A stretch of 64,000 nucleotides of DNA, taken from NCBI RefSeq assembly GCF_001438655.1, contig NZ_JQBR01000009.1, positions 1 through 64,000 on the forward strand. Reading direction: 5' to 3'. This document shows, in pieces, positions 4,885 to 34,866 of this stretch. The position numbers and the translations under genes were made by a program. The notes beneath the pieces were generated by a model that saw only the letters and a list, made by a program, of their open reading frames with translations, ran no database searches and was not told the DNA's origin. Origin of the DNA: Pediococcus cellicola. GTDB lineage: Bacteria > Bacillota > Bacilli > Lactobacillales > Lactobacillaceae. The stretch's first letter is position 1. Each line of letters starts with the position of its first letter.

Positions 4885-4892
4885 TAGAAATA

Positions 4893-4935
4893 CCTCCTTA
4901 GTTTTTTTGTGTGGGATAATTGCGAACCACGAACC
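4893..4935 (-). promoter_or_regulatory. preQ1-I riboswitch upstream of queT
   Basis: Read on the minus strand the leader has GGTTCGTGGTTCG, an AAT-rich loop, ATCCCACAC and then an A-rich tract into CTAAGGAGG. This matches the preQ1 class I layout: a short GTGG/CCAC P1 stem, an A-rich segment that packs against it, and a 3' CTAAGG that forms the pseudoknot and includes the ribosome site. That arrangement implies translational control: preQ1 would hide the ribosome site and turn off queT. Confidence 0.88.
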
Positions 4936-4978
4936 TTTTTATGATATCATAAAATCATCCATAATTCAGGAGGCTTTT

Positions 4979-17097: not shown

Positions 17098-17297
17098 TAT
17101 AATTACGCTCCTTTGCCATGAGTCATTTACTGAGACATAGTTATTTATACTAATTAGTCAACGTCCACTATAATATCATGAATATTTGTTAGACGCAACT
17201 CCACAATTGTCAAAAATCACCAACAAATCTTGTGACGTCTGGCTTAGTAGCCAAATTGGCCTTACTAGCTAACAATGCCTTTTCAAGTAACAATATT

Positions 17298-33465: not shown

Positions 33466-34236
33466 ATGTCTAATTACTTACATTTTTTGGCTCATCAATT
33501 AAAAGGATGGCCACAACAAAACTATTATTTATTCTTTTTCAGTCTTGGTTGTCAAATCATGACGCTTGTCAATGCCCCAATTACAGCCTTGACGATCACA
33601 ACCTTCATCGGAACGACGTTAGGTGTTTTATGTATTCTAGCAATTAATGCTGCTAAATCAGTTAACGGATGGTTAGGACTTTTATCTGCCCTCTGCTTTA
33701 TTATTACAGGTTTTGCTGCAAAAAACTACCTAAGTATGGCAGAACAGTTAGCTTATGTGGTCACTTTGGACTTACCCGTCTTAATGAGTGCCAACTGGAA
33801 CGTCAACATGGTTTCTAAGATTCGTAAATTCACCGGTAGAACCTGGTTCGTTGCTTTAGCTTCTACTATCATTGTCTATTTCGTTTCTGGTTACTTAATC
33901 GGTACTTTTACAAACGATCCTCGTCCTTGGGTTGACGCCATCAGCTTCTCCATTAGCTTAACGGCCGGTGTTATCTGCTTCCTACGTTACAACAACCAAT
34001 ACTTTTGGTGGGTGGCTTCAGGAATTGCACAAATGGTACTTTGGTTCATTTCCTTCCGTCAGGGATCCGCAACACTTGCAATGTTTGTAAACAGTTCTAT
34101 TTACTTGATTAACGATGTTTTGGCATTTACAACTTCCCCATGGTACAACAAAAAGGAACGTGCCCGTCTTATCAAAGCTGAAAATAGTTATTCTGAAAAA
34201 GAAGAAGAAACAGTGGCCGATGTCACTCATGCTTAA
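33466..34236 (+). CDS. pnuC: PnuC-family nicotinamide riboside transporter
   Basis: A 256-residue membrane protein with about seven helices. It shows the PnuC pattern: NGWLGLLSALCFI, WVDAISFSISLTAGVIC and the Trp/Asn-rich NNQYFWWVASGI; it imports nicotinamide riboside for NAD synthesis. AGGGAG precedes the ATG by eight bases. It is probably regulated via the dyads in its leader. A terminator closes the unit. Confidence 0.9.
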   Translation: MSNYLHFLAHQLKGWPQQNYYLFFFSLGCQIMTLVNAPITALTITTFIGTTLGVLCILAINAAKSVNGWLGLLSALCFIITGFAAKNYLSMAEQLAYVVTLDLPVLMSANWNVNMVSKIRKFTGRTWFVALASTIIVYFVSGYLIGTFTNDPRPWVDAISFSISLTAGVICFLRYNNQYFWWVASGIAQMVLWFISFRQGSATLAMFVNSSIYLINDVLAFTTSPWYNKKERARLIKAENSYSEKEEETVADVTHA

Positions 34237-34258: not shown

Positions 34259-34296
34259 TAAAACACATCTCTCCTTGCGAGGGATGTGTTTTTTCT
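34259..34296 (+). terminator. Terminator of pnuC
   Basis: AACACATC-CTC / GAG-GGATGTGTT stem with a 5-nt loop, then TTTTTTCT. Confidence 0.85.
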
Positions 34297-34312
34297 GGTT
34301 TGGCAACTGTCA

Positions 34313-34605
34313 GTCAGACTAGAAAAATAGGCGAGGCTCCCAGCTAAGAATTCTCCTAGCCTCCGCCCAGTTTCCCTTTCTCTTTTTTCCACAGAGTTTG
34401 AGGACAACTCCGTAGGTCAGACTAGAAAAATAGGCAAGGCTCCCAGCTAGGAATTCTCCTAGCCTCCGCACGGTTTCCCTTTTCTCCTTTTTTCCGCTGA
34501 GCTTGAGGACAACTCCGTAGGTCAGACTAGAAAAATAGGCAAGGCTCCCAGCTAGGAATTCTCCTAGCCTCCGCCTCGCCTATTTTTCTAGTCTTATCGA
34601 CCTAC
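34313..34605. repeat. Three tandem ~104-bp repeats with a terminal foldback
   Basis: Units begin with GTCAGACTAGAAAAATAGGC at 34313, 34416 and 34521 (periods 103 and 105), with the shared core CTCCCAGCTA[AG]GAATTCTCCTAGCC in each. GCTAGGA ATTC TCCTAGC is a perfect 7-bp hairpin in units 2 and 3 (one change in unit 1). Unit 3 ends in an inverted copy of its own start: AGACTAGAAAAATAGGC (34524-34540) pairs with GCCTATTTTTCTAGTCT (34578-34594), and GTAGGTC (34517-34523) with GACCTAC (34599-34605). The element lies between the convergent pnuC and glsB-like genes. No ORF with a ribosome site lies within it. Confidence 0.9.
34517..34605. repeat. 89-nt nested foldback (unit 3 terminal hairpin)
   Basis: 17-bp perfect stem plus a 7-bp outer stem with a 4-nt TATC bulge, enclosing the 7-bp inner hairpin. 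As RNA on either strand this would be extremely stable. It resembles a terminator or a MITE end in shape, but no run of Ts follows the outer stem. Confidence 0.85.
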
Positions 34606-34614
34606 TACGTTCAC

Positions 34615-34866
34615 TTATGTTTTTCTCATTCCAAAAATTGCTGATACTATCAGCACCACCACAATCGCGCCGATTATCGAGGGAATCAACGCCATTCCTG
34701 CCAGCTGAGGCCCCCATGTGCCTAATAAGGACTGCCCCAACCAAGCACCCACCAGACCCCCGACAATATTGCCGATCCAGCCTGCTGGCAAATCTCTACT
34801 TGTGATTGCACCCGCAATGGCACCTATAATTCCACCAATAATTAAAGCCCATAGCCATCCAAACAT
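34615..34866 (-). CDS. GlsB/YeaQ/YmgE-type stress membrane protein
   Basis: An 83-residue protein with three hydrophobic segments and the family motif GGIIGAIAGAITSRDLPAGW..NIVGGLVGAWLG, known as transglycosylase-associated or GlsB proteins, linked in some species to Gls24 stress. Role unknown. AAGGAG precedes the ATG. The gls24 operon is about 6 kb away, so no operon. Confidence 0.88.
   Translation of the reverse strand: MFGWLWALIIGGIIGAIAGAITSRDLPAGWIGNIVGGLVGAWLGQSLLGTWGPQLAGMALIPSIIGAIVVVLIVSAIFGMRKT

Follow-up and report, generated by a model that had tools for sequence, protein, structure and literature searches.

The analysed DNA of Pediococcus cellicola (a stretch of 64,000 nt, hereafter the window) contains a tandem array of foldback units between two convergent genes, and the question that it raises is what kind of element this array represents and in which form it acts. 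Our analysis indicates that it is probably an array of a small non-autonomous palindromic repeat of ~113 nt, belonging to a superfamily found across Lactobacillales, with the folded minus strand as its working form.

The array is real and consists of three units of 103-105 nt, spaced in register at 103 and 105, namely two truncated units followed by one full ~113-nt palindrome at 34503-34615. Units 2 and 3 are 97% identical, and the head of unit 1 is worn. The inverted arm is found in the last unit only (34517-34545 against 34573-34601, 86% complementary over 29 nt), as a sequence-only reading of the window had correctly described. That reading recognized the array but placed its end at 34605 and described it on the plus strand: the natural bounds of the full element are 34503-34615, and base 34615, the last one in window numbering, doubles as the last A of the TAA stop of the minus-strand GlsB-like gene. 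The selected fold is that of the minus strand, so the "head" of that reading corresponds to the 3' end of the element and its "distal arm" to the 5' arm. Folding of the 322-nt array gives -135.8 kcal/mol, compared with -100.3 +/- 5.7 for shuffled sequences (z -6.2). The upstream heads had been supposed to compete for the single distal arm; the fold shows nothing of the kind, the lone 5' arm being paired in both the MFE and the centroid structure with the partner closest to it. On the minus strand the full element reads, in order, AGUGAACG, the 7-bp lower stem, a one-sided bulge, the long variable stem, the apical hairpin, the return strands and GGAGUUGUCCUCAA. The features of the locus are as follows (R1 and R2 are the models of the Pediococcus type and of the superfamily, respectively).

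34503-34615, minus strand: full element, 113 nt; 101.9 bits with R1 and 81.9 bits with R2 (E 6.6e-21 in the window), scores that are partly due to construction, since both models had this element in their training rows
34599-34605, minus strand: lower 7-bp stem, 5' strand, from the fold; partner at 34517-34523, the helix covarying across loci and families
34517-34523, minus strand: lower 7-bp stem, 3' strand, from the fold and helix covariation
34578-34594, minus strand: long locus-specific arm, 5' strand (the "inverted copy of the head" of the sequence-only reading), from inverted repeat I3 and the fold
34524-34540, minus strand: long locus-specific arm, 3' strand, from the inverted repeat and the fold
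34551-34568, minus strand: apical hairpin with a GGAATTC core, from the fold
34398-34502, minus strand: truncated unit 2, which keeps the apical hairpin and one arm, the other arm being replaced by a tract that is pyrimidine-rich on the plus strand; similar truncated units occur at other loci
34295-34397, minus strand: truncated unit 1 with a worn end, from unit comparison
34615-34866, minus strand: GlsB-like gene (Transgly_assoc, PF04226); its TAA stop (34617-34615) shares one base with the element, the first base of the latter
33466-34236, plus strand: convergent gene for an NMN transporter (PnuC-like, PF04973)
34260-34292, plus strand: intrinsic-terminator-like hairpin of the plus-strand gene, outside the element, from terminator calling

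At all Pediococcus loci read, the tract that replaces the lost arm (e.g., 34470-34502 in the window) was rich in purines on the minus strand (GCGGAAAAAAGGAGAAAAGGGAAA). The truncated units very likely arose by tandem duplication with loss of one arm.

The strongest new fact is a strand bias in the arms. A fold selected in a single strand tolerates its own G.U pairs, but not the mirror-image A.C mismatches. Among 84 distinct full Pediococcus elements, arm mismatches read on the plus strand comprised 135 A.C against 11 G.T; RNAfold gave 33 GU pairs on the plus and 262 on the minus strand, and the minus strand was the more stable one in 82 of the 84. A strict count, restricted to strict columns and to cluster representatives of less than 85% identity, with the poorly registered apical hairpin excluded, gave 54 to 10 (p about 2e-8). 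Elements of Lentilactobacillus provided an independent replication (57 to 11; minus strand more stable in 45 of 46). Since the A.C excess on the plus strand corresponds to G.U wobbles on the minus strand, the selected fold is that of a single strand, the minus one. RNA and single-stranded DNA fit the wobble bias alike; the data support single-strand (RNA-like) selection, and the folded strand is probably RNA.

Covariation shows that the pairing is retained while the sequence is free to change. Across 28 full elements, both sides vary with pairing retained in 30 of the 34 base pairs, and the covariation score is 0.604, compared with 0.20 for shuffled alignments and 0.07-0.16 when the partner is slid. 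For the core helices across four families the score is 0.617 against 0.10-0.14 with slid partners, and even the weak closing helix of 3-4 bp covaries across families. At the asd locus, followed in five species, the arms have diverged with compensatory changes; the asd stop codon lies inside the element in all five, and the element provides the last residues of the protein in four of them (the exception being the Pediococcus genome G007). In the source genome (G000:C12:243.7-244.4 kb, L009), the array behind asd contains a tandem duplication that includes the last ~23 asd codons, with one N between the copies, which is either a real duplication or an assembly join.

The repeat is dispersed. A BLAST search with the array, a check of the kind that the sequence-only reading had suggested, finds further copies in the same genome, and model R1 identifies ~17 full and ~25 truncated ones there. 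The loci read in this genome share a common plan with differing arms, in which at least one truncated unit is followed by one full palindrome beside a gene. At one locus (G000:C21:96.4-97.7 kb, L011), about ten near-identical truncated units stand in a row upstream of one full unit; this array is likely a variable-number tandem repeat useful for strain typing. Neighbouring Pediococcus genomes contain tandem full palindromes, sometimes of two alternating kinds, and carriers include P. parvulus, P. ethanolidurans and many Lentilactobacillus species. Matches to R1 were found in 40 of 301 genomes of the family (12 of 40 genera). Model R2, for which 34 sequences from several families were taken on the folded strand, matched 122 of 395 Lactobacillales genomes (39 of 80 genera, enterococci included), some single weak matches among these possibly being chance hairpins. 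Two Pediococcus genomes (G003 and G009) have no R1 matches yet do have R2 matches, so that "absent" holds for the R1 type only. The window element has the features of the R2 superfamily: 5'-AGNGNGYGRARCAAAKC, a one-sided G-K-TTA bulge, and closing and lower helices that covary on the minus strand. The same core was found in R2 matches inspected in eight further genomes, where the wobble bias is weaker (GU 36 plus vs 72 minus; minus strand more stable in 26 of 28). One family (f3) was taken to be enterococcal on the evidence of its plasmid relatives. A gene with a tyrosyl-tRNA synthetase-like C-terminus, from another family of the order, ends in a similar array, its TAG stop abutting the element (L221, positions 1473-1760). 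Two plasmid records, NZ_CP151545.1 (labelled Pseudomonas aeruginosa) and OL539428.1 (labelled Escherichia coli), each contain an enterococcal-type element, for which transfer, contamination or mislabelling are possible explanations.

Known RNA families do not account for the array. Rfam covariance models gave no match to it above the gathering score, only sub-threshold miRNA-like hairpins. Elsewhere in the window, a PreQ1 riboswitch (4892-4936, minus strand) and an L31-Firmicutes ribosomal leader (17108-17140, minus strand) scored above the gathering score. No phage or viral copies were found with the pattern and query tried. An earlier description in Lactobacillus or Pediococcus was likewise not found in the literature searched, most subscription journals being outside its reach.

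The copies are placed in a characteristic way relative to genes. In Pediococcus one end of the element, the tail, lies near a gene end in 43 of 50 cases, compared with 9 of 50 for the other side; in Lentilactobacillus the other side is near a gene edge in 8 of 73. Read on the folded strand, the element starts within -9 to +7 nt of the stop in 34 of 43 (Pediococcus) and 31 of 34 (Lentilactobacillus) stop-side copies, and the stop codon itself is built from element bases in 26 and 18 cases, respectively. A second class, comprising 23 Lentilactobacillus copies, has the tail end just 5' of a Shine-Dalgarno site, with the start codon mostly 18-24 nt away. In these copies the folded strand is antisense to the gene, and the bias is retained (40 to 6). 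As the bias is equal in antisense copies, the preference for one strand is a property of the element rather than of the host mRNA; this speaks more for the life cycle of a mobile element than for a purely host-serving role in the 3' UTR.

Presence of the element at a given site varies. Copper-resistance plasmids shared, among others, by Listeria, Pediococcus and Lactiplantibacillus have a divergent copy between copY and the gene for the copper ATPase, and Leuconostoc plasmids with nearly identical flanks are without a 154-bp segment that holds the element. The empty site reads GGAAACTTAT|TTTTAGGGGG, and the filled one has ACTTAT at both ends. Both an insertion and a clean deletion between the short ACTTAT repeats fit this cleanly polymorphic site, and in the latter case the empty site would not be the pre-insertion state. 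On the copper plasmids of L. reuteri (L207) and L. amylovorus (L210), half of the element is deleted between AAAAATCC repeats, one of which is in the host flank and the other in the loop of the element. At the GlsB site, the elements of G000, G005 and G008 have unrelated arms, only a tail-like remnant is present in G007, and G006 has none. The proposal of a new MITE-like family of intergenic repeats is thus upheld as far as dispersal, copy number, order-wide range and one site polymorphic for presence are concerned, but not as to the MITE likeness: there are no terminal inverted repeats beyond the element's own stem, and no general target duplication. The suggested check for flanking duplications, made on 53 single copies, showed no excess of direct repeats over shuffled pairs. 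The Y1 domain (PF01797, TnpA_REP) is absent from G000, G005, G006 and G008, i.e., from four of five element-rich Pediococcus genomes, and the fifth (G007) has one partial match; a Y1 transposase was rejected as the mobilizer on these grounds.

An RNA serving the host, that is, a stop-proximal hairpin for mRNA stability or double-stranded RNA processing that was spread by recombination and is not mobile, would agree with the anchoring at stops, with wobbles on the sense strand of stop-anchored copies, and with the asd copy that persists in five species through compensatory changes. It is an unlikely explanation, as the Shine-Dalgarno-anchored copies are antisense to their gene yet show the same strand bias, and close species at the GlsB site, like the plasmids, differ in the presence or identity of the element. 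The small size and the dispersed, palindromic, non-coding nature of the copies, along with their tandem and mixed arrays, recall a classical MITE or a REP moved by a DDE or Y1/RAYT transposase; we consider this improbable given that a survey for Y1 transposases found no Y1 domain in four Pediococcus genomes (G000, G005, G006, G008), and that neither separate terminal inverted repeats nor target duplication above the control were observed.

The sequence-only reading had also offered a strong transcription barrier for both flanking genes. A terminator module, possibly bidirectional, might be expected from the frequent convergent context and from the A-tract and T-tract that flank the GC-rich upper stem. 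Nevertheless, no terminator (a GC stem directly followed by a T run) was called within 34296-34615, the NMN transporter gene has a terminator of its own, and the lower stem and 3-bp closing helix are conserved though needless for termination. A barrier as the main role thus finds no support, and a terminator module is slightly less probable still than a transposase-moved MITE or REP. As a candidate terminator the element was rejected, being uncalled as such and adjoining a called one (34260-34292). Finally, quasipalindrome correction is known to produce paired changes, and template switching of this kind combined with strand-biased C-to-T change could imitate covariation with no selection on the fold. 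Such an artefact is scarcely credible in view of a wobble bias of about 5:1 that stays the same with gene direction reversed, and of a weak closing helix (3-4 bp) that covaries between families.

The array is therefore best read as a new order-wide branch of EFAR/REP/BOX-like palindromic repeats, kept as a folded single strand. Closest in outline are EFAR (Efa-1) repeats of Enterococcus faecalis, a family of 163 bp (about 163-170 bp) with two adjacent stem-loops (PMC2267715, PMC3733652). Like the repeats described here, they are short, modular, intergenic palindromic repeats of Lactobacillales with tens of copies and a long stem-loop. Enterococcal relatives found with R2, including an E. faecalis copy located 3' of a PTS gene with a second hairpin alongside the long one, fit the published outline, the comparison being one of descriptions only. 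By this outline rather than by sequence, EFAR is probably the enterococcal branch of the R2 superfamily. The branch described here differs in its ends (AGUGARCG...GUCCUMA), single long hairpin and truncated tandem units; strand-biased covariation and anchoring at gene edges were not found described in the literature searched. BOX, RUP and SPRITE of Streptococcus pneumoniae are also small dispersed intergenic repeats with folding potential and a variable number of modules (PMC10969869); by description, they are set apart in that the arms here vary freely and only the pairing and the ends are kept. REP/RAYT and GTAG-tagged palindromes resemble our elements in being extragenic, near gene ends and clustered, and wobble has been reported in REP stems too (PMC3733652). 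They are 20-40 bp long, end in a GTAG tag and come with a Y1 transposase, whereas the element here is ~113 nt long, lacks a terminal tag (GGTAG/GTTAG occurs in its internal bulge only) and has no Y1 in most carriers. ERIC elements, of about 126 bp, likewise form one long stem-loop in intergenic regions; their sequence is conserved, whereas the arms here are free to change while pairing. A classical MITE would have the terminal inverted repeats of an insertion sequence and a target-site duplication, neither of which was found, with one copy having ACTTAT on both sides.

As to mechanism, we favour a mobile element whose folded strand, RNA more likely than single-stranded DNA, would be recognized by the mobilizing or processing machinery, because selection acts on one and the same strand regardless of whether a host gene reads it in sense. 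The recognizing enzyme could be of host or mobile origin. The repeat would be tolerated because its landing sites are gene edges and it supplies stop signals in several frames. Placed after a stop codon, it would be transcribed as the start of the 3' UTR, in the window as the first part of that of the GlsB-like gene, forming a duplex of roughly 30 bp; tentatively, such a very stable duplex may influence the stability of mRNA 3' ends or processing of the RNase III type instead of serving as a terminator. A bolder proposal, which we regard as rather doubtful, is that these repeats form an order-wide selfish class whose members move or are copied in the form of one folded strand, target the borders of translated regions (just past stops and just before Shine-Dalgarno sites), and are made harmless in last codons by stops in several frames.

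Relatives of the element are carried by about a third of the Lactobacillales genomes sampled, food bacteria and enterococci included, typically at gene ends, where the repeat can provide a gene, such as asd, with its stop codon and final residues. This anchoring prompts the question of what guides such elements to their sites, and the one-strand wobble signature makes the RNA or single-stranded DNA nature of small bacterial palindromic repeats directly testable.
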